Assembly: GCA_900323505.1 (NCBI GenBank)
Contig: OOIN01000007.1
Location: 1,475,440 to 1,539,439 of the forward strand
DNA: 64,000 nucleotides
Origin: Ustilago trichophora
Taxonomy: Eukaryota; Basidiomycota; Ustilaginomycetes; Ustilaginales; Ustilaginaceae
Direction: 5' to 3'
Positions 22,472 through 64,000 of this stretch are shown one piece after another. Under the pieces are notes generated by a model that saw only the letters and a list, made by a program, of their open reading frames with translations, was not told the origin of the DNA and made no database searches. The position numbers and the translations under genes were made by a program. Within the stretch, counting starts at the first letter, position 1, and each line of letters begins with the position of its first letter.

Positions 22472-25400
22472 ATGGCCCAGACAAGCTTGCTGGAAGGTAA
22501 TGGCCTTCTCGACCTTGACCCGCCCGCCACCAGCTCGCAAGCAAAAGCGGACGAACTCTTCCCGACGGCGGCCGACCCGTTCCGTGAGCGAGATCTCAAC
22601 CTCTTCAGTCCACCTGGATCCCAAAGCGAAGCACAAAAGGCTCTCAACGCATGGGGCTCGCAAGCACCGGAGAAGCTGAACCATCATCCTTATTTACAAA
22701 GCCCTGATCGTGGCGGGCCCATGGACTTTGATGCTGACCTCGACCTGGACCAGCTACTCGACGAGGAGATCTCTCTAAGGCAAGATGCAGACGTGCAGCA
22801 GCAGCCACAGCAGCCTTCTTCGAAATCGATTCGGGCAGGGCATGACGACGACGAGCTCGAGGCATTCTTGCTTGCCGAGGAAGAGCATGCGACATCGAGG
22901 CCTTCGCCACCTCAGGCGGCTCAATGTTCACAACGCCCTCCATCACCTCCTCTCGAGTTCTTCTCTGCCAACGATTCCGTATTCTTGTCCTCGCGGGCTT
23001 CTTCATCGGCGTCGGACCTTCTTGAGAGCAACGGCTTGTTAGGAACATCTTCTCAGCCCACTTCGCAGCATTCCGTCACTCCAGCATCCAGTTCGCAGGC
23101 TTTGACCAGTCTACCCTTTCCGACATCTGCACAAGGATCTTTGCGAGCGATCGAGTCACTCTCAGCAATCGAGATGGAAGCCGAAGGCAATGCCCAAGTC
23201 ATCACAACACGCGAGGCCCCAGCAGGTCCATCACGACTGCCATTGCGCGCACAGCCTGTTGGCGTCCCAAAGTACATTCCCGCTGGCTTCCTGAATGCCA
23301 CTACGATGGATGGCACTCCTGTCCGCTTTGAGCGCCGCAAACGCATGAAGGGATGGAAGCCACCTGCCATCATGGTCGACGTCGATGCCTCGCAACTTCT
23401 CGAGCGGCCCATTCACCAACTTCTTGACGCAGTCCAAGCCTTAAAAGCTCTTGAAGTGGTTGAGCACGACGAGGCTAAACGCGATCAAACTCGTCGAACC
23501 ACAAACCATGAGACTGCCGAGGGCTCCAAGGCCGTCTCACAGATGTGGGTCGACAAGTATCGACCGGACAAATTCACCAAGCTTCTCGGTGACGAGCGGG
23601 TCCACCGCGAAGTCCTGGGCTGGCTCAAAGAGTGGGACGAGTGCGTCTTCAAGCGCAAGAATCATCGCAAGGAGCGCCATCGACAATACATCCAAGCCAA
23701 ATACGGACTTGCGGACCACGGCGCAGGCGACAAGGGCGGCGAGCACATGTGGAAGGACCCCTACGGCCGACCGAAGGAGCGGATCATGATGATCTCGGGC
23801 CCTCCTGGTCTTGGTAAGACCACTCTTGCTCATGTCGTTGGCGCGCACGCGGGCTACAACGTGTACGAGCTGAATGCCAGTGACGCCCGTACAGCTGGAG
23901 CAGTCGAGGATGTGATCAAAATGGCGCTCGAGTCCCGCAGTCTGAAGGACCCGAGACCGACATTGGTGGTGATTGACGAGATTGATGGTGCAACGGGCGG
24001 TGGTGGTGGAGCTTCGGGCGAATCGCATGGCTTTGTGCGTGCACTGCTACGACTGGTCGAGATGGGCAAAGGAGCCGGGCCGAAGGCAGCAGGTCTAGCT
24101 GCACGTGGCAAGAAGCAGCAGCGCAAAGGTCACAAGCCCCTCCTTCGACCCATCATTTGCATCTGCAATGACCTGTACGCTCCTTCCTTGCGGCCTTTGC
24201 GGCCCATGGCCAAGCTGATCCGCTTCAACAAGCCGCCGACTAATCTTGTAGTCAAACGTCTGCGCGAGGTATGCGAAGCCGAAGCACTCTCGGTGGAAGC
24301 TCGGGGCCTGTCGCTGCTTGCGGAGCTGACCAACGGCGATATCCGCTCCTGCTTGAACGCACTCGAATTTGCAAAGACAAAGAACATTGCGCTCACCGAG
24401 GCGGCGGTGAAGAACGCCTCGATTGGGATCAAAGACACGGGTGGTACCGTCCACAAGGCCTGGGAGATGCTCTTCCGACGCCAGAATCGCAAGCAAGCAG
24501 CGGCCTCGAGCATGAAAGGGGCCAATGCAAATGCCGCGGATGTAGAAGGTTTGCCGTGGAACTCTTCTCGCAAGGCATCTGCGCAGAACTTGACTTCGGA
24601 CGGCAAGGAAAAGCAGAAAGACTTTGCGCTGATTGACACGCCTCGGGAGAATGTCAATCGCATTATCCACGAGGTCATCAGCTGCAACGAATATGACAAG
24701 CTTGCCCAAGGCTGCTTTGAGCACTATCCGACGCTGCGTGCCGCGGACGGTGGCTGGAAGCGGTACCGAGAGGTGCACGACTGGCTACACTTTGGGCAGA
24801 GCATTGCCAGTCGTGCATGGTCGCAAGGCAGCTTTGAGCTGCTCGGCTTCATGCCATGGTCGTTTGTTTGCTGGCACCTGCTCTTTGCACACGTCGGCAA
24901 CTCGCTTCCCGAGTATCCGAAGGTGGACTACGAGAACCATCTTAAGACGTCTGCCTTCAACGAAATCGCCTCGCAAGTTGTCGGAATCCTCCCTGCCAAC
25001 GTTCGCTCACAGTTCAATCGACATTCCGTCATCACAGAGCTAGGCCCATCGCTCATGCGTATCCTTACACCGGATCTTCGACCGATCAACAATCAGCTGT
25101 CACGAGCCGAAGACAAGCAAGCATTTGATTCTCTCGTCTCGATCATGACCTCGCTCAATATCAAATTTGTTCAGGACAAGATCTCGGAGGAGGAAGCAGC
25201 AGCAACTGGGCAGAGCGCGGGTCAGTTGGTGTACAAACTCGACCCTCCGCTGGACATTTTCACGCAGTTCGAGGGCAAACGGTCGAAAGAGATTGGGCCG
25301 TCGCGCTTTGCGGTGCGGCAGCTTGTGGCGAGGGAGATGGAAAGGCAGCTATGGCGCAAGAACGCCGGTGTGGAAGACGGTGAGGACGATGCGGCGTTGA

Positions 25401-51641: not shown

Positions 51642-52945
51642 CCCTAGCCCTAGGCCGCGGTGCGCCAGCCGCGGGAGAAGCACCAGTCCGTCCCGCCAAA
51701 ATGGCCAACCTGACCGCGCTCCGTCAGCCTGAGGGACACGTCAAAAAACACTGGTGCAGTGCCGCAACGGAAAATTCTTTTTCCTTGGCTGGGCAGCGGA
51801 CAGGTGGGTGACGGATGCGTCAAAATTCAGGGAAATTGCTAGCGTGACAGACACGCTCACCCACACTGCTCTAGTGCCTGACAGACCAATCCAACTTTTT
51901 TGGCTGAGCAGCCCACTCACCCAGCAGACTCACTGAGCTGTCCGTCACTTCACTGACTGGCAGACAGGATGAGTGACAGACATGACTGACTGACTGACTT
52001 GGTGAAGTGACAGACGTGACTGACTGGCGGACATGATTGAGGAAGTGACCCGTGCTGCAGACATATGCAGTGATCAGGTGTGTGACGGTGACCAATGTGT
52101 ACCCATAGACTGCGGCAGACAGACAAGGCTCAAATGCCAACACTGACGGACAATGTCAAAAAATATGTCTGCCAAAAAAATCTGATCAGAATGCTGGCCT
52201 CAAAATTGAGAGCGCAATGTGTCCTTGGAGCAAGGAGCGTGACGCGTCTGGGCATGAGTAGACAGATTCTCATTGCACTGCACACAATTTGACCCTAGCC
52301 CTAGGCCGCAGTGCGCCAGCCGCAGGAGAAGCACCAGTCCGTCCCGCCAAAATGGCCAACCTGACCGCGCTCCGTCAGCCTGAGGGACGCGTCAAAAAAC
52401 ACTGGTGCAGTGCCGCAACGGAAAATTCTTTTTCCTTGGCTGGGCAGCGGACAGGTGGGTGACGGACGCGTCAAAATTCAGGGAAATTGCTAGCGTGACA
52501 GACACACTCACCCACACTGCTCTAGTGCCTGACAGACCAATCCAACTTTTTTGGCTGAGCAGCCCACTCACCCAGCAGACTCACTGAGCTGTTTGTCACT
52601 TCACTGACTGGCAGACAGCATGAGTGATGGACATGACTGACTGACTGAGAAGCTTGGTGAAGTGACAGACGTGACTGACTGGCGGACATGATTGAGGAAG
52701 TGATTCCTGCTGCAGACATATGCAGTGATCAGGTGTGTGACGGTGACCAATGTGTACCCATGGACTGCAGCAGACAGACAAAACTCAAATACAAACACTG
52801 ACGGACAATGTCAAAAATCATGTCTGCCAAAAATCTGATCAGAATGCTGGCCTCAAAATTGAGAGCGCAATGTGTCCTTGGAGCAAGGAGTGTGACGCAT
52901 CTGGGCATGAGTAGACAGATTCTCATTGCACCGCGCACAATTTGA
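51642..52945. repeat. 651-bp tandem duplication (two copies)
   Basis: Copy 1 runs from 51642 to about 52292 and copy 2 from 52293 to about 52945. Both start CCCTAGCCCTAGGCCGC and end CACAATTTGA. They differ by scattered substitutions and small indels. Each contains GACTGACTGACT and GACAGAC words, a GGTCCGT-like GC-rich head and the ACGCGTCAAAATTCAGG motif. No protein is recognised within; a 60-residue GTG-start frame is present in both copies. Confidence 0.88.
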
Positions 52946-53716
52946 CTCTGCGCTGACTGACTGACAGACGCGTCAAATTTCAGTAATTTCATCTTGGCAG
53001 CGTGTACATCCTTCAACAGCACTCTGAACAGCGGCTGGTCCGTCAAGTCATGGCTCCTTTGTCTGGAAGCGTGTGAAGGACAATGTTGAGACAACAGTCA
53101 ATGACTCTCACGGCTGGAACCAACAAAGCTAACTCAGATGCTCCCAAATGCAGACCGTTGCTTTGAGTTTGCTTTGTGTTTGACGGACAGCTTTTCTCAC
53201 AGCTTGACTTTGACGTACTTGTCCTTTGTCCGCCATGCACCCACACCCTTGTCTGTCCTTCACACGCTGTACACCTTTGTCTGTTGTCCATTGTCCGTCA
53301 CACACCACAGATCTTTGTCTGCTTGTTGCTCACCACACAGCTTTGTCTGTCCGCCACTGAAACAAAACTTTACACACCGCTCACAGCTCTGCACTATCCT
53401 TTCTTGACTTGATTGCTTTACGGTGTGTGTCTGGATGAGCATGAGCGCAAGTGAACCCATCTCAGCCTTTGTACGTTTCCCTCTTGGACACATTGATTCC
53501 AAGTGGCTGTTGCTGTAACCCATTACGCTTGCTGGAATCCTTGACCGTGTACATCTGACTGTGCTTGCTATGTGCGCTGCTTGTCTCCTCTGAAGCATAT
53601 ATACTGTGCCTTTCTGACCGTTGCTGACCGTCATTGCTCATCAATCCAACAATCCATTCCAGCTTCTCTCTACCGTACTCTACCACTTTTATCCACCGCC
53701 AGCAAATTCTTCAACC
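52946..53716. promoter_or_regulatory. upstream region of the recombinase-helicase gene
   Basis: About 770 bp rich in TTTGTCTG and TGTCCGTC words. It carries a third copy of the GACGCGTCAAATTTCAG motif at 52967-52983. A TATATACTG word near 53599 lies about 120 bp before the ATG and might be a core promoter. Confidence 0.4.
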
Positions 53717-56700
53717 ATGTCTCAGCAATCTTTCCATCCTGATGACAGCATACTTGCTGCTGAACTTGTTGATGCAGGCATCAACACAATGGACGCAGTC
53801 AGTGATACGGACAGGTATGTTTGGGCAATCATCACCACACATCATCAATGATCAGCAGCTGACATCACTATTTGCATTTTTTGAATTCAGTCACGCTCTC
53901 CCTGCTGCCAACCAAGCCGCAAATCAAGAAACCACCATTTCCACTCCAGTGGATCCTCAGCACACCGCTCAGCTGGCACGCTTCAACTTACGCTTGGTGG
54001 ACCATCCCCGCATCCTGCTCTGCACCCTGGACAGCTGTTGTCCTCAATTGCCGCTCATCCCAGACTTCAAGCACGTCACGGCTCACATCAAGAAGGTCCA
54101 CAAGAAGCCGCTGGTTGGGTCTGCCAAGGATATGCTGCGTAGCCTCCTTGATGAACTGGATGTACCGTCTCCTGGCACGGTCTGCATCAACAAGGATCTT
54201 CTGCCAGAGCGCATGATTCCTGAGCTGGGTGAGCTCTTCCAAGGCTACCGCTGCAACTTGTGCTCCTATGCCGTCCAAGCCAAGTCTGCTTTCTACGAGC
54301 ATCTGCGTGGGCATCCTGATGCTAAAGGCAGAGCATCATACACCCATCCTGTTCCCATGCAGAAGTTGCACAAGTGCGGCAAGAAGATCCGCTACCTTCA
54401 CGTCCGCAATCAAGATCTGGATCCCACACCGCCTCCTGCCATTCTCACCACCGCTCTGGATGCCAGCACCATCAGCGCCAATATCAAGACAAAGGTGGAT
54501 GCCTTCCTCAAGAAGAATGAAGATTGCCTCCGTGAAGCAGACCTGCTCAAGCCAGGCATTCAGCCTGAATCTGCCAGCGGCAACATTGGTCCTTGGGCCA
54601 AGCAGCTGGGTTGGCATGCGTACTGGGCTGGCAAGCCTATTGTGGCCATCGGCGCACTCAGCAAGTCAAAAAAGGTGTGGCCTGGTGCTCATATAGACTT
54701 TGTCCATTGGGTATTGGTCATGACACAGCAAGCAGCCGCAACATGGATGATGGCTTTCCTCAAGACTGGCAGGCAGGTGCAACAGACTTTCCGTGCCTAC
54801 AGTCCTGAACCAAGCCAGCCGTACAACCTCAGCCTACCAACAGTCAAGAAACGTGCGGACATGTGGGCCTTTTTACTTGCTCTGCTTATCCATGCGGTCT
54901 TTGAGGGTGTCTCTTTTGGCTATTACGGTGACAGTGACCAGACTGAGCATCTTGGTCTCAGCGCACACCTGGACTCTGTACTGCAAGATCTGCATGATCT
55001 TTACTACGGTGCAGATGCAGACATTGATCCGCTCACTGATGAAGATCTGGCAAGCAAGGCAGTGCCGCTCCTCCTCCAACTCTCTCACCTCTTGGTCACG
55101 CAACAGCCAGAGGTGTATGGTGAGAATGACAAGCTTGCTTTGGTACGGCTGTTCCTCCACCTCTGCGTCAGCGCAGATGGCACTCCCATTCCCGTCAATG
55201 CCGCTACGTCCATCATTGCCAGCTTGGAGTTCTGCTGCCGTGCAGTGCTCTGGCAGTGGCTGTTGGATCCAGAAGATGGTGTGCTCATTGAGCGCTCTGC
55301 TGAGGAGATTGCTGCCGAGGTTGATCTACAGATGAAGCGCTATCTGTACAGCACCAGCAGCTCCGCCAGCTCATACCTACAATCCCTTCACCGGTATGGC
55401 ACAGTACTTGCGCAAGATGATGGCACCAACTTCCACTTTTCCTGGCAGCAAGATCTCAAGAGCGTCAAGTTTGGAACAGAGACCATCCAAGTGGACCGTC
55501 TCCAAGCTCTGATGCATGGTGCGCAAAAGCGGGCAGAAGCTTTGCTACGTCAGCTCTGCCTTTTGCCAGAGGATGCATCACTTGCGCTCAACCTGAAGCA
55601 CATTCTGGATGATCACCGCAACATGCAACCAGACTTCAGCTTTGTGGCCGCTTCTCCGGAGCTGCAGAGCATCAGCAGTGTTCTCTGCCGTGCTGCTGCT
55701 GGTAACGTACCTGCTGCGCAACCCCTCATGGATCCATACTCTGATGAGTTGGAGTTCGATGCAGATGCTGCCAATGCGTACTTCAGCATGCACAATGAAT
55801 TCACCAAGCTGCTTGCGGTGCTCATTGAGCTTGGTAGCGGTCTGCCTGCAAGAGGTACAGAGCTGCTCCAATTGCAGCACACCAACACGCTTGTTGGTCC
55901 ACGCAACCTCTTTGTGCATGATGGCAGTGTCTTCACCGCTCTGCCCAGCAAGAAAGGCACTGGACGTCAAAAGGTGATTCCACGCTTCCTGCCATACCCA
56001 GTGGGATGCATGGTGGTCTTTTACGTAGCTCAGGTGGTGCCGTTTGTCCATCTCCTACATAATGCAGTGCTGCAGCCCCGTGCGGCCAGCTCTATGCTCT
56101 TGGTGGACCATCACGGCAATGCATGGGAGACAAATGCCGTCACCAAGATGCTGCAAGCACTCTGCCAGGAGCACATCAGCTCTATCACGGCTGGCCTCAA
56201 CATGCGCACTTGGCGGCAACTGGCAGTGAGCATTGACCGCAAGCTCATCCGTCCGAGGTCCATGACTGCAGAAGAGGTGTTGGACAGCGCTCACGATCTT
56301 CAAGCTGGACATTCAACACGGACTGCAGAGCAGCACTATGGCCTGGATGCAAGCATGCTGCATCAGCTCACGCAAGAGAGCATGGATGTCATGTTGGAAG
56401 TGTCAGAGCGGTGGCATGCATTCTGGGGTATGCCATCCCGCTTTGAAGAGGACGTCAAGCCATATGACCACCTCATGGCAGGAAAGGCAGCAGGAGATGA
56501 CTGCAAGGCAGTATCTTCACTGAAGCGGCAGCTGGATGCTTTGCAGGAGGACATGCGGTGTGTCAAGCAAAGGCTGGAGCATCCAATTGAAGTTGCTCCA
56601 CCAAGCGCTACAAGTGCGGTGCCTGCTGCCCCCATTTCACGCTCTGCTGTGCTAGCAGAACCAGTCAGCAATGCACTCTTCAAGGTGACCGGCAGCCACC

Positions 56701-58706
56701 GCACCAAGACACTGGAGCAGGCCTATGCGCTCAATGCCATCTATGCCAAGGAGACACCACTGATCATTGTCATGGCCACTGGGTCCGGCAAGTCTGCACT
56801 TTTCATGGCACCGCTGCATTGGCTGCCGCCAGCCTCTGTCATTATTGTGGTGGTGCCATTCATTGCACTCACAGATGATCTGATGGAGCAGTGTCAGTGG
56901 GTTGGAATTGTGGCAAGCAAGTGGACAGGCTACCGGAGTGCAGACAGAGTAGAGGGCAGTCAGCTGGTCTTTGTTGCAGCAGAGAACTGCTACAGTCAAG
57001 CATTTGCCAACTGGGCGCAAGAGTTGGATCAGCAGAAGCGGTTGGCAGCCATCTTCTTTGATGAGTGCCATGTCTGCGTAACTCAAAACACCTTCCGTCC
57101 GGCAATGGAGAAGATCAAGGCACTCATCTCTGCTGTGCGGGTGCAGCAGTACCTCCTTACGGCTACGCTGCCACCAACTCTGGTTCCCACCTTCAAGACC
57201 ACACTCTGTCTCCCGCAAGATGGTACTGGCATGATCAGGGCGGCCACCAACCGCAAAAACATCTCCTACAAGGTCCAGCAACTTACATCAAGTGTGGAAA
57301 TGCCATTCCAAATCAAGCGTCTCCTTGAAGCTCACCCTGCCGGTGCAGTGATGATCTTCTGCAAGTCCACCACTGCAGCACAAACCACAGCGGAGGATCT
57401 CAATTGCACTTGCGTGATCGCAGACATGCCAGAGGAGCAGAAGCAGAGAACGGTTTCAACATGGTTGCGGTGTTCTGCCACAGAGACCAACACTGGCAAA
57501 CGCGTCATTGTTGGAACAACAGCTATCGGCACAGGCATCAATCCGCAACATGTCAGTCTGGTGGTCCATTGCGGTGATACATGGGACATGGTCAGTTACG
57601 TGCAAGAGTCAGGACGCGCTGGACGTAGTGGCAGTGGAGCATCAGCGGTGCTGTTGGCCACCAGAGTCCAAACACGTGAAGCACAGGTGCAGCTCTACAT
57701 AGAGGAGCGTACTTGCCGGCGTCTGGCCATCTCACGCTATCTGGACGGAATGCCGGTGACTTGCCTCAGCCAGCCAGACTTTGCGCTGTGCGACCTCTGC
57801 CAGCAGCGTGTGGAAGGACCAGTCACACCGCCAAAGAAGATCATTGGCTTGGAGTCACCGCCAGAGTCTGACAAGCGTGAGCGGCAGCAGAATGGCAAGA
57901 CCCAGACTGCTGGTCAACTCCAAGCTGCAAACAGCAGCAGTAGGCGGTTGCAAGTCAGCACCACGGCCTTGGATTCACCTACACCACGTCAGCGGCGGCA
58001 TCAAGGTTTTACGGCAGCTCTAGACCTGAACCATCAGCACTCAGCAAGCAGAGGAGCGCCAAACCAGATATTATCCTCCACTGCTCAAAACCAGCTTCAG
58101 CCAGCATTGCCGGTTCTCAGTTTTACGCCTCCGCCATTTGCATTCAGCCTAAGTCCATCACCGGCACATCCACCTGTGCACATTGACATTGACACATCAA
58201 GCAGCAGATCGCTACTGCAGAGCCTTGCCGGTGTGTGCTCTTTGTGTTACCTCTTCCGCAACCAGCACACATGCTCTGGACAACATGGAATCCGACACTC
58301 TTTCAGCAACTGCAACTGCTGGCCGCAAATCAAGGACAAGTTGCCACAATCAGAGCCACGCATCAATGCAACCTACATTGGCGGCCTCAAGCGCTGCATG
58401 CAGAAAGCAAAGCACATTGCTTGTTACGCATGTCTGGTTCCCATCAACATTTGCGCCAACACCAGCTCAACCAATTCTACAGCATGCTCACGCAGGTATG
58501 CTGACATTGTGCTGCCCGTAGTTGCGGCAGTGCTCAGATGCAGAGAGCACACTGCCAATGTGCTGCGGTTGATTGGCTTGGATCAGATGGACCCACATGC
58601 GGTAGTGGTACAAGGTGAGCTAGGTACAGCCGTGACCTACAAAGGTGAGAGTATGCTTCTGGCATTTGCCATGTTTGCAGCGGCTGTAGAAGCAGCGGCT
58701 ATGTAG
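53717..58706 (+). CDS. tyrosine recombinase-RecQ helicase fusion with N-terminal zinc fingers (telomere-linked helicase type)
   Basis: A spliced gene: exon 1 53717-53814, intron 53815-53890 (GTATGT...TTCAG), exon 2 53891-58706, about 1637 residues. N-terminal Cys/His segments near residues 77-105 and a C2H2 finger at about 152 (YRCNLCSYAV, then HLRGH) recall the OrsD/DUF3505 region of fungal helicases. At about 680-850 all parts of a tyrosine recombinase site occur: RGTELLQLQH (Arg near 686), KKGTGRQK, MRTWRQLAVS (Arg near 804), GHSTRTAEQHYG (His, and Tyr near 847). A RecQ-type helicase follows at about 970-1310: MATGSGKSALF, DECH near 1089, GTGINPQHVSLVVHCGD, YVQESGRAGRSG. A Cys-rich tail lies at about 1478-1560. 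The frame is intact. Telomere-adjacent RecQ genes are known in U. maydis and other fungi. Its function here is inferred, not shown. Confidence 0.88.
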
Positions 58707-58812
58707 ATAGAAGACTTTGCATGTTTCTCAAAATAAATCATTAATTGCATTTCCAGAGTCTGTGAAAATGCAGACAAAGTGGAGGCCTGACGCGTCAATG
58801 AGGTTGAATGAG

Positions 58813-59043
58813 TCCATCTCAAAGAGACGCGCAAATTTCAGAAATTGGTCCATCTCAAAGAGACGCGCAAATTCCAAGAATCAGTCAGTCTCAAAGAGAT
58901 GGATGAAAATTCAAAATCAGTCCGTCTCAAAGAGACGGATCAAAATCCAAACTGGACACGTCTCAAAGAGATGGATCAAAATCCAAACTGGACATGTCTC
59001 AAAGAGATGGATCAAAATCCAAACTGGACACGTCTCTTTGAGT
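58813..59043. repeat. 36-bp tandem array with TCTCAAAGAGA core
   Basis: Six complete 36-bp units (58813, 58849, 58885, 58921, 58957, 58993) and a partial seventh at 59029. All six keep TCTCAAAGAGA exactly; flanks drift. The last partial unit carries the core in reverse (TCTCTTTGAG). The array ends 16 bp before the ATG at 59059. It is also an open 12-residue repeat (SISKRRANFRNW and variants), but unit changes are mostly amino-acid changing, so a DNA-level element is favoured. Confidence 0.85.
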
Positions 59044-59058
59044 TGGATCACACTTCCC

Positions 59059-60210
59059 ATGGTACATCACACCACAATGACATACATACCTGTACCTGGC
59101 GGCACTTCTCAAGCAGATCAGAAGCGCATCAAGAGGCTGCAGTACAGCCTTGCGTCCATCAATGCCAAGACGTACACCCTTGACAAACAGTACAAGGTAA
59201 TGGAGAAGGATCGGCAGGCAAAGTGCTCTTGGACCTTGCCCATCATCACCGGCCAGGCCATCACCTCTTTTGATGACTGCAAGAACACAGTCTACACCCG
59301 CAACATCAGCCTCCAGGACAGCAAGACCAGGAATGTCTTCCTCCAGCGCTTCTGTCCGGCCACTGAGTCTGCTGCCTCCAGCATGACCAAGAGCTATAGC
59401 AAAGGTGCCACCTTGTTCCGCAAGGTCATGGAGACAGCCAAGTGCAAGAAACACAAGGCAGACACTCGGCAGACAGTGGATCAGCAGCAGCACTTTCCAC
59501 ACTACCACTTTGGCATCTGGTACGACAAGATGATGGTCAGCTTGACTCTATCGGAAGAGACTCAGCAGCCAGGCAGGGAGGAAGGCAGGCAAGCTGTGGC
59601 GGAGTTCTGCATCTGGTTCAAAGAGTTCACCCGCAAGTTTGTTCTCCCCATCATCAAGAATGGCCACTCTGGTCTCTGTGATACCTTCAGGTCAGAGCTT
59701 CAAGAGCGCATGGATGTCCACTTCCCTTGGGCAGAGAAGCAAGTGGATGACCTGGACCGGTACTGCCACCCGCTGTACTCCACCATCTCACCATTCCTTG
59801 GCTTCTCCAGCAATGTGCACAAAGACGTGAAGGATGCAGACGTGTCTATCCTGGTCAACCTCGGACAACATGCTCTCTTGCAGCTGCCAGAGTATGGCAT
59901 AGCAGTGGAGCTGCAACCACAAGACATCGTCATGTTCCTTTCCAACAGCGTGGAACACCTCACCGTCCAACACCCAGCTCATGTAAAGGCAAGATCAGAC
60001 CCTGGAGAGTGCATGGCCATCAGCTGCTTCTTCCGCAAAGGGCTTCAGCAACAGAGAGAGCCAAAGAAGCACAACCATACATACTACGCAAGGAAGGCAG
60101 AGGAGGAGCAAGAGGCAGAGCGGCAAGCAGCATCAAAGAAGCGCAGGGTGGAGCAGTGCGGTGAGGCTGGGGGACTTGCCTCTGGAGCTGTAAAAAAGAG
60201 TCCAGAATGA
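59059..60210 (+). CDS. TET/JBP-like 2-oxoglutarate/Fe(II) dioxygenase 1
   Basis: About 383 residues from the ATG at 59059 (a second ATG at 59077; the frame is open upstream through the 36-bp array). The C-terminal half has the double-stranded beta-helix pattern of TET/JBP-type dioxygenases: FGIWYDKMMVSLTLSEE, then the metal HxD in NVHKDVKDAD (about residue 263), LVNLGQHALLQLPEYGIAV, QPQDIVMFLSNSVEHLTVQ with the second metal His, and ISCFFRKG whose Arg could bind 2-oxoglutarate. The tail is highly basic (ASKKRRVEQ), fitting a nuclear or DNA-binding role. Basidiomycetes are known for expanded TET/JBP genes linked to mobile elements. It starts about 350 bp after the recombinase-helicase stop, same strand. 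Oxidation of a DNA base is inference. Confidence 0.72.
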   Translation: MVHHTTMTYIPVPGGTSQADQKRIKRLQYSLASINAKTYTLDKQYKVMEKDRQAKCSWTLPIITGQAITSFDDCKNTVYTRNISLQDSKTRNVFLQRFCPATESAASSMTKSYSKGATLFRKVMETAKCKKHKADTRQTVDQQQHFPHYHFGIWYDKMMVSLTLSEETQQPGREEGRQAVAEFCIWFKEFTRKFVLPIIKNGHSGLCDTFRSELQERMDVHFPWAEKQVDDLDRYCHPLYSTISPFLGFSSNVHKDVKDADVSILVNLGQHALLQLPEYGIAVELQPQDIVMFLSNSVEHLTVQHPAHVKARSDPGECMAISCFFRKGLQQQREPKKHNHTYYARKAEEEQEAERQAASKKRRVEQCGEAGGLASGAVKKSPE

Positions 60211-60328
60211 CAAGTCCCCCAGCCAAAATTGCTTTCGAGAATCAGGCAATGAATTTTGGCTGGTGAGCACAGAGGGGGACTTGCCTGTTTGTCGAAGCAA
60301 AAATGGCTGAAAGAGACAAGTCCCCCTC
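60165..60328. repeat. nested inverted repeats between the two dioxygenase genes
   Basis: A perfect 14-bp inverted repeat (60165-60178 with 60211-60224, GGCTGGGGGACTTG) overlaps the end of dioxygenase 1. An 11-bp pair CAGCCAAAATT/AATTTTGGCTG follows (60220-60230, 60252-60262). Then comes a 12-bp pair (60272-60283 with 60317-60328) reusing GGGGGACTTG. They could form chained hairpins or a cruciform, and may help end transcription. Confidence 0.8.
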
Positions 60329-60437
60329 CAGGCTGGGCTCTCGAGAAAGATTCAACCAGTAGACACCAGCTCCACCATAGAATCATCCATCATCGTTCCA
60401 TATCCACTTGCCAGCAATCCAATCATCCATTCCAGCC

Positions 60438-61463
60438 ATGCCAGCCAAGGGTGAAGCAGCTTTGGATCGAAAGAGGAAGAGGAATGCAGAGAGAGATGCC
60501 TGCAGGAGGCAGAGCTATCGAGACTCCCAGGAAGAATCTACCCACATTGATCTGTCTCGACAACATCATATCAAAAGGCACACAGACCTCAGCCAGTTTG
60601 ATCTTATCGAGTGCAAAGCACTAGCAGAAGGCAGCAGCAGCCATTCAACTCGACCCAACCTTACTCTAGCAGACAGAGACACCAAAGAGATCGTGCTCCA
60701 GAGGATTGCACCCACCAGCTATGCCAAGTTTCTCGAAGCCAAGAAGAGTTCCCTCATAGGCAAGCACCTTTATGATCAATATCTGGCAAAGAAACCCATC
60801 CCCATCTCGACAATCAGCACACAGAAGCTCAAGATCAAGCTCACCAAGAGAAAAGTCATCGAGCATCACCTAGGAATCTGGCACTCTCGAGGCAAACAGA
60901 CTCTGGACTTCACCAAGGAGACCACTGACCCTCGATACAAACCTGAAGCACTCGATCTTCTCTTCTGGGCAAGGATGCACACAGACCTGGTGATGAGAAC
61001 TGCACAACCTTTGATCCATCCCAGCTTCAGGAGCAACATTTCATCTCGATCCAAAGGCAGAAAGTGGCTAGCATCCATCTTTGGTTCCAAAAGCATCGAG
61101 CTTCTCCATCCCTGGTGGACTACTGTAGCCTTCTTCTCGAACTTTGCAGGTGGCATCCATCTCGACAATGATGACTGCATTCCATCCTTCTTATTCAACT
61201 TTGGAAAAGCTGCTTGGATCGAGTTACCAGAGTTCTCAGTCAAGATCCTTGTCGAACCTATGGACTTGGTCATCCTCAACTCTCGATCTTTTTACCACAG
61301 GACCAGACCCTTCGTTCCTCCTGGACACTCTGCTGCTGCAAACAGGTGGGCATTCAGTGGATTCTTTCGAGATGCCATCTATCATAGAGAAACAGTGTGC
61401 AAGGTAGCAGAATGGAGGCTCGATAGCATCTTTGGGTATCAGTCAAAAGGAGGATCATCGTGA
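60438..61463 (+). CDS. TET/JBP-like 2-oxoglutarate/Fe(II) dioxygenase 2
   Basis: A 341-residue diverged paralogue of the preceding gene. The basic N-terminus (DRKRKRNAERDACRR) suggests nuclear import or DNA contact. Matching landmarks in the same order: HHLGIWHSRGKQTLDFTKE, WTTVAFFSNFAGGIHLDNDD with the HxD pair (about residue 238), FLFNFGKAAWIELPEFSVKI, EPMDLVILNSRSFYHRTRP with the distal His, and WAFSGFFRD with a candidate 2-oxoglutarate Arg. All four key positions are therefore kept although overall identity to the first copy is low, which argues for selection. The ATG at 60438 (CAGCCATGCC) is favoured; the frame before it starts only with TTG. Substrate unknown. Confidence 0.72.
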   Translation: MPAKGEAALDRKRKRNAERDACRRQSYRDSQEESTHIDLSRQHHIKRHTDLSQFDLIECKALAEGSSSHSTRPNLTLADRDTKEIVLQRIAPTSYAKFLEAKKSSLIGKHLYDQYLAKKPIPISTISTQKLKIKLTKRKVIEHHLGIWHSRGKQTLDFTKETTDPRYKPEALDLLFWARMHTDLVMRTAQPLIHPSFRSNISSRSKGRKWLASIFGSKSIELLHPWWTTVAFFSNFAGGIHLDNDDCIPSFLFNFGKAAWIELPEFSVKILVEPMDLVILNSRSFYHRTRPFVPPGHSAAANRWAFSGFFRDAIYHRETVCKVAEWRLDSIFGYQSKGGSS

Positions 61464-61833: not shown

Positions 61834-62425
61834 CAGACATGCTGGCTCTACAATCAATTGCTCATGACCTTCCTGAGCTCCAGGAGAGTGTCACCATATC
61901 AATAGCTCTTCACAATTGCCAGTCACCGTAGAGCTATGCTCACATGGCTGTAAGGTCACCTATATACTTCCTTACAGCCATGTGACCATGGAAGCATCAT
62001 ATCAAGAGCATCAAGTGTGATATTTGGCTCTTGACCATCTCTTGGATGTCAGGAGTGTCATGAGCATCAGAGATGTGGGTTTGGACAAGCCATGATGCTG
62101 CAATGGTCACATGGCTGTAAGGTCACCTATATACTTCCTTACAGCCATGTGACCATTGCAGCATCATATCAACAGCACATTGTGTGATATTTGGCTCTTG
62201 ACCATCTCTTGGATGTCAGGATTGTCATGAGCATCAGAGCTGTGTGCTTGCAAAAGCCATTGCCGAGATTTGGTCACATGGCTCTAAGAGAGTATACAGG
62301 TGACCTTATAGCCATGTGAACCTAGCTCTGCACTGACTGGCAATTGTGAAGAGCTATTGATATGGTGACACTCTCCTGGAGCTCAGGAAGGTCAAGAGCA
62401 GAATATTGTAGAGCCAGCATGTCTG
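61834..62425. repeat. long imperfect palindrome with central 31-bp hairpin and 167-bp direct repeats
   Basis: Outer arms (61834 to about 61984, and about 62270 to 62425) are reverse complements with few mismatches, e.g. CCTGAGCTCCAGGAGAGTGT on the left against its complement on the right. The centre is a perfect 31-bp stem (62092-62122 with 62137-62167, 14-nt loop). A 15-bp stem lies at 61941-61955/61970-61984. Between them a direct repeat of period 167 bp occurs (GTGATATTTGGCTCTTGACC at 62017 and 62184). Confidence 0.85.
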
Positions 62426-63279: not shown

Positions 63280-63804
63280 TGAAGTTGGTCAACTCTTCAC
63301 CGTTTTGAGGTCTGTAAAGAGTATGATGCTTGGCACTAGTCTCTCCAGCCTCCTTGTACATCAGAATGATGATAGCATGTTGGTATTGGCATCCCACATG
63401 CTGGATTGATCATGTATATACCAGGTCAGACCACTAAGTCTTCAGGAGATGAATTGCAAGGGTACAGGGAGATGTACCAGCTGCTGTGGACCTACATGTA
63501 TCCATCTGCTGTGGTAAAACGTAACCTGCAGCTTAAGGTCCTTCACCAAACCAGCAAGTTTCTTCATGATTACCTGTTGAACTCAGCATCTCAATATCTC
63601 TATCCAAAATGAAGGCTGCAAAATTGCTGCATGCTGTCACCTGTCTGTATCAGAGAAGCTGATTGCTACATACACTAGATCTTTCCATTGACTACACATT
63701 AGCACCCCTGATCCTCCATGTGGGTTCTTCTACCTCACTGTCAATCCTAGCCTGGGAAAGGTTGTGGGGAGGCTGCTTCTCATAGAACACCTTCCTCATG
63801 AAGG

Positions 63805-64000
63805 TTAGGGTTAGGGTTAGGGTTAGGGTTAGGGTTTAGGGTTTAGGGTTAGGGTTAGGGTTAGGGTTAGGGTTAGGGTTAGGGTTAGGGTTAGGGTTAG
63901 GGTTAGGGTTAGGGTTAGGGTTAGGGTTAGGGTTAGGGTTAGGGTTAGGTTAGGGTTAGGGTTAGGGTTAGGGTTAGGGTTAGGGTTAGGGTTAGGGTTA
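63805..64000 (+). repeat. telomere (TTAGGG)n, right chromosome end
   Basis: About 32 TTAGGG units reading 5' to 3' to the end of the window, the orientation expected for a right end. Two TTTAGGG variants lie near 63834-63847, and one TTAGG unit near 63945. The proximal variants suggest older repeats, the distal array more recently made ones. Confidence 0.98.

Follow-up and report, generated by a model that had tools for sequence, protein, structure and literature searches.

A candidate mobile DNA element with a tyrosine recombinase-RecQ helicase gene and TET/JBP-like dioxygenase genes at chromosome ends of Ustilago trichophora

The right end of contig C7 (1.54 Mb) of the smut fungus Ustilago trichophora carries three long open frames on the same strand, considered here as genes of a candidate element attaching at chromosome ends: TYR-RecQ, in which a tyrosine recombinase is joined to a RecQ helicase in one frame, and then, toward the telomere, DOX1 and DOX2, which profile and predicted-fold evidence identifies as divergent TET/JBP-family dioxygenases. 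The window, i.e., the whole stretch of 64,000 nucleotides analysed (G000:C7:1475440-1539439), belongs to an assembly of 38.8 Mb in 45 contigs, with telomere repeats at 80 of the 90 contig ends (both ends of each contig were checked). Ends are designated by contig and side (e.g., C7L, C12R), and coordinates given without a contig are window positions. In agreement with the initial annotation, which had described three same-strand genes close to a telomere array, the frames occupy 53634-58706, 58717-60210 and 60408-61463, and the DOX2 stop (61463) lies 2.3 kb short of a GGTTAG array at 63803-64000. The locus comprises the following features:

51642..52292, + strand: what is left of an eroded copy, namely the first of two 651-bp proximal terminal units, which begins with the telomere-like tip CCCTAGCCCTAGG
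52293..52945, + strand: second terminal unit, with which the present element begins proximally, abutting the eroded first unit
53634..58706, + strand: TYR-RecQ gene, 1690 amino acids, first Met at 53742; recombinase at about residues 640-910, RecQ at about 1020-1365
58717..60210, + strand: DOX1, TET/JBP-family dioxygenase, 497 amino acids, first Met at 58768; Cys at residue 432
58811..59050, + strand: 36-bp tandem repeats in the DOX1 N-terminal region
60408..61463, + strand: DOX2, TET/JBP-family dioxygenase, 351 amino acids, first Met at 60438; H251, D253, H297, R313
61936..62319, no strand: 167-bp tandem repeats downstream of DOX2, common to other ends too
63692..63803, - strand: remnant of DOX3, a third dioxygenase gene, telomere-truncated, 112 bases left
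63803..64000, + strand: TTAGGG telomere array, cutting the element at the window end

The identity of TYR-RecQ as a tyrosine recombinase and RecQ helicase, proposed earlier from the bare sequence, is confirmed by Pfam helicase domains (DEAD, 3e-14; Helicase_C, 1.3e-14), by catalytic residues and by the predicted Xer/Cre-like fold of the recombinase catalytic domain; close to the N-terminus lies a weak zinc-finger match (E 0.018). In an alignment of the window protein with 15 relatives (all of the 17 detected except P0014 and P0027), Arg740, Lys774, Lys780, His893 and Tyr902 are kept in 16/16 proteins, and the second Arg of the R-K-(H/R)xxR-H-Y catalytic set in 14/16. Relatives are named in Kalmanozyma, Sporisorium scitamineum, U. 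loliicola, U. hordei and Ustilago sp. UG-2017a, and no named U. maydis entry occurs among the 17. Since the U. loliicola counterparts of TYR-RecQ (NDA16_004185) and DOX1 (NDA16_004184) carry neighbouring locus tags, on contigs of equal length, conservation of the pair probably extends beyond this genome.

Regarding the dioxygenases, the proposed TET/JBP membership holds, with NgTet, CcTet, TET2 and CMD1 as the best profile and fold matches; a best match to an unrelated 2-oxoglutarate family, named beforehand as the outcome speaking against it, did not occur. The DOX2 model (predicted local distance difference test score, pLDDT, 82) displays a double-stranded beta-helix, its best fold matches being CcTet, NgTet, CMD1 and TET2, its profile aligns to the HxD...H stretch of NgTet, and the iron site and downstream Arg are present (H251, D253, H297, R313). 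Two HxD...H...R cores had been described: that of DOX2 is complete, whereas the window DOX1 has Cys at residue 432 where Arg is expected, with a CpG transition at 60010. This Arg, which we take to bind 2-oxoglutarate in both proteins, is Arg in 6/10 and Cys in 4/10 distinct readable DOX1 copies; given its loss via a CpG transition, the methylation that DOX1 may oppose seems to have damaged its own gene in those four. Comparison with the Pfam Tet_JBP profile, suggested as a check, gave a weak match for DOX1 (E 0.0021, 17.7 bits), under the curated cut-off of 34.9, and none for DOX2; weak matches were found in 7/23 aligned members (best 4.5e-5), and 0/12 Tet_JBP matches in the genome exceeded the cut-off.

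The three genes recur as neighbours at other chromosome ends, contrary to the second outcome named beforehand as speaking against the reading: the order TYR-RecQ, DOX1, DOX2 toward the telomere was found at 19 of the 80 telomere-bearing ends, with incomplete frames at some of them (DOX2 is cut by the telomere at C4L; DOX1 at C7L and TYR-RecQ at C30R are shorter). DOX3, inverted, is present at the 8 ends extending further (C2R, C13R, C21R, C22L, C23R, C30R, C33L and C39L). The DOX2 query retrieved 57 genome matches, including other dioxygenase paralogues, and a 442-amino-acid helicase query 37, including distant chromosome-internal helicases. The copy at C12R is diverged, with protein identities ranging over about 48-63% (50% for TYR-RecQ, 57% for the DOX1 core and 61-62% for DOX2), and keeps the gene order; judged by its recurrence at these ends and in this diverged set, the combination is not due to chance. 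At the sequence level, the dioxygenases are under selection; relative to the C12R copy, DOX2 has a ratio of nonsynonymous to synonymous substitution rates (dN/dS) of 0.22, and the DOX1 core a ratio of the corresponding proportions (pN/pS) of 0.38, with saturated dS. By eye only, the family-3 element at C12R (L135) seemingly has a further short open frame ahead of TYR-RecQ.

By comparing chromosome ends, a shared start was located at 51642. The 651-bp proximal terminus has 41 genome matches, 39 of them subtelomeric (within a 15-kb limit); the tip boundary was read for 40 of the 41, one copy on C43 being unfetched, and 38 were tallied, the diverged copies at C38R and on C43 (one) being left out. 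All 38 tallied junctions, which belong to family 1, start within a few bases of the telomere-like (C)CCTAGCCCTAGG, with an extra CCCTAG-type repeat at 6/38 tips, and the tip is joined directly to unrelated DNA; the upstream flanks form 35 clusters (three pairs are shared) and display no consensus just before the C run. Two further families with different bodies, read at C3L, C8L, C10L, C14L and C15L (family 2) and at C12R and C14L (family 3), share the CCTAGCCCTAGGCCG tip, and TYR-RecQ shows a dN/dS of 0.22 between families 1 and 2. Terminus matches of the three families together mark 59/80 telomere-bearing ends, among which C36L, C37L and C42L rest on 37-137-base matches only, and 75/75 subtelomeric hits point outward (39/39 and 36/36, a few places being matched by both queries). 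Six hits were classed as internal: one on C13, outward and just past the limit, and five on C43, in both orientations. Several degraded internal copies lie on C43 at roughly 70-120 kb, a region that may be a chromosome end fused long ago.

At the distal side, copies are cut by telomere repeats at varying points, namely 61684 (C4R, C5R), 62114 (C41R), 61781 (C7L), 61376 (C4L), 61923 (C16L), 59695 (C44R), 60010 (C11L), 56950 (C19L) and 63804 (window), and no copy with a preserved right end was found among those read. In C16L, C2L/C30L (where the inner copy ends at 57338) and the window, an eroded copy is followed directly by a new tip, without intervening telomere repeats; at these three readable junctions, the tip and the eroded end share CCT, CCCT and C, as comparison with the intact element shows. 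Unrelated flanks at a fixed start, a single orientation, truncation and stacking fit end attachment better than ordinary insertion, since homologous spread alone gives no new flanks and random insertion gives no single orientation. The suggestion that this is a chromosome-end-resident element is thereby upheld by the fixed tip, the outward orientation and the recurrence of the gene set.

We propose, with a probability of about 0.55, that these genes belong to a mobile DNA element attaching at chromosome ends, with recombinase joining and TET-like anti-silencing. A worn or broken end offering a short C-rich match (C, CCT or CCCT) would be joined to the fixed left tip CCTAGCCCTAGG, and the element would thereby run outward to the telomere; the joined end would then erode from outside, TTAGGG repeats would heal it at varying points, and another copy could cap the eroded end again. 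TYR-RecQ is a plausible mover, and may make the junction by exchanging or copying the chromosome end.

Weighing against this proposal is a serious rival, which we nevertheless consider rather unlikely: host break repair at the telomere-like tip, through break-induced replication or microhomology joining, would copy the distal segment of a passive subtelomeric repeat, the tip being a good annealing site and the genes passengers. The C, CCT and CCCT microhomologies and the near-identical copies at many ends agree with this explanation, and break-induced changes are described at fungal telomeres, in MoTeR arrays (PMC7367193, in part). However, random repair would start at many points, whereas 38 junctions with 35 flanks all begin at one point, give or take a few bases; moreover, two diverged families use the same tip, and the tyrosine-recombinase residues are kept. 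Excision as a circle and tyrosine-recombinase insertion in the subtelomere as in Cryptons, with later erosion of the right end, is improbable: the recombinase is present, Cryptons use 4- or 6-bp direct repeats according to a section of PMC3212892, and short shared bases do occur at the junctions, but random insertion would yield both orientations instead of the outward one alone, and none of the copies read has a right end.

The proposed role of the dioxygenases is drawn from the decay of CpG sites. In family 1 (17 sequences from 16 distinct ends), a minority transition occurs at 26/574 CpG sites versus 3/4552 other C/G sites (odds ratio 72, p 3e-22), and the same bias was found in family 2 and in a 3.9-kb subtelomeric repeat (odds ratios 12 and 17), the latter common to C1L, C6L, C8L, C14L and C15L. 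The CpG observed/expected ratio is 0.41 in the element versus 0.94 in window 1-48000, and the TpG/CpA excess 1.54 versus 1.21; another estimate puts the ratio at 0.43 in the element and 0.89 immediately inward of it. Along the window, the ratio ranges from 0.78 to 1.16 (2-kb bins) up to 48 kb, begins to drop at about 51.0 kb, roughly 600 bases ahead of the element, to values of 0.27-0.76 (500-bp bins), and is 0.09 at the very end. Among 20 left ends read as a control, five telomere-bearing ones lack both the element and a second end-attaching unit, X (described below): C12L and C13L stay at about 1.0 to the telomere, and C5L, C6L and C20L are intermediate over the last 3 kb (0.74, 0.59 and 0.77), C6L holding the 3.9-kb repeat and C5L sharing other repeats. 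The footprint therefore tracks subtelomeric repeats, the element included, rather than closeness to the telomere as such. From the transition excess and the depletion, the element is probably CpG-methylated, which would be the likeliest cause of the decay. A telomere-marking role of the dioxygenases, with thymine or some other telomeric base hydroxylated in the manner of kinetoplastid JBP, along the lines supposed in the initial annotation by analogy with base J, would suit their subtelomeric position and family membership but is very improbable, because the footprint lies at CpG within the element and other subtelomeric repeats, TTAGGG contains no CpG, and the ratio remains near 1 up to the telomere at the element-free C12L and C13L (C5L, C6L and C20L being intermediate).

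The dioxygenases more likely counter silencing than mark telomeres: probably acting on 5-methylcytosine (5mC), they would oxidise it on the element and relieve silencing by host cytosine methyltransferases, although the CpG decay shows that the element does not stay methylation-free in their presence. Cytosine-methyltransferase domain matches above cut-off occur in two pairs (C32/C38 and C24/C19). Passages of PMC13297926 and PMC7862722 describe U. maydis as devoid of DNA methyltransferases; the second paper also tabulates an old high-performance liquid chromatography value of 2.26% 5mC for that species. More tentatively, and short of even odds, the whole could be a DNA-only end-building transposon in which TYR-RecQ joins the tip to broken ends and recaps worn chromosomes, its own TET enzymes keeping it expressible under CpG methylation. 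The tip would in that case possibly come from an extrachromosomal molecule, linear and ending on either side in telomere-like sequence, since its polarity is that of a telomere at the far end.

Some further observations were made. Window 22500-23999 has a 91% partner at C6:32684-34201, and the U. trichophora genome is given as 20.7 Mb in portions of PMC4966473 and PMC8951962; with an assembly about twice that size, this partner region and the paired methyltransferase matches, the genome looks diploid or hybrid, with about 9% divergence. The short unit X starts with GGGTTATATGACTGTCTGGT, preceded at several ends by TTAGGG-like bases (L018 5311-5791, - strand; C1, C8L, C10L, C12R, C14L, C17L and others), and 36 of its 37 hits point outward, one being internal. 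Right beside the telomere on the left of C1 (L009) lies a 706-bp tandem array composed of X and the initial 224 bp of family 2.

To our knowledge, fungal subtelomeric RecQ helicase genes have been known for long without an explanation; the recombinase fusion, the fixed tip and the TET-like companions turn them into a testable mobile element. The end-building reading, if true, would explain the purpose of some of these genes in smuts. The element suggests a non-retroelement route to rebuilding chromosome ends and, if this is right, a new way of building them. Furthermore, this smut, which combines a footprint of CpG methylation with genes for methyltransferases and TET relatives, set against U. 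maydis with its reported lack of DNA methyltransferases, would allow methylation and element-borne demethylation to be compared between close relatives.

Each part has a published relative, i.e., subtelomeric RecQ genes, TET-bearing transposons, telomeric retroelements and Cryptons, whereas no description of the gene combination, of a recombinase in a telomere-linked helicase or of a fixed telomere-like tip was found in the portions of literature searched. RecQ-type genes occur beside telomeres in several near-identical and truncated copies (PMC10532341, PMC7473861, PMC4466345, all in part). The telomere-linked helicases (UTASa of U. maydis, compared by description, and the subtelomeric RecQ of Agaricus bisporus and S. 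scitamineum) have the RecQ core next to telomeres, as here, and the present element adds the tyrosine recombinase, the dioxygenase genes and the fixed tip. TET/JBP-bearing DNA transposons of fungi were reportedly described by Iyer in 2014. Such mobile DNA with TET/JBP dioxygenases, similar in this respect to the present element, has been proposed to counter methylation (Kojima, 2025; PMC12730594, in part); the lists there cover DDE-type transposons and Helitrons of Pucciniomycetes, Agaricomycetes and Pezizomycetes, and the main text is without the words "tyrosine recombinase", "Ustilago" or "RecQ". Among Pfam matches of the three window proteins, shorter frames not being scanned, there was no DDE transposase, Helitron protein or reverse transcriptase domain. 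Cryptons are small, occupy dispersed positions and insert without end polarity. They are DNA elements with a tyrosine recombinase (PMC3212892, in part, a text in which the word helicase is absent), as is the one described here, which differs in pointing only outward in 75/75 subtelomeric hits. At chromosome ends of Magnaporthe, MoTeR elements always point the same way, and one of their termini bears a telomere-like run (PMC7367193, in part). They resemble the present element in both traits, but are retroelements within telomere repeats, whereas the tip of the present element directly adjoins non-telomeric DNA. Drosophila HeT-A/TART and rotifer terminons are retroelements stacked in one orientation at chromosome ends and distally truncated. 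The polar stacks and distal truncation are as found here, whereas the present element has TTAGGG telomeres as well and no reverse transcriptase in its three proteins; if the end-building reading is true, the element would be an equivalent of HeT-A and terminons that relies on a recombinase.
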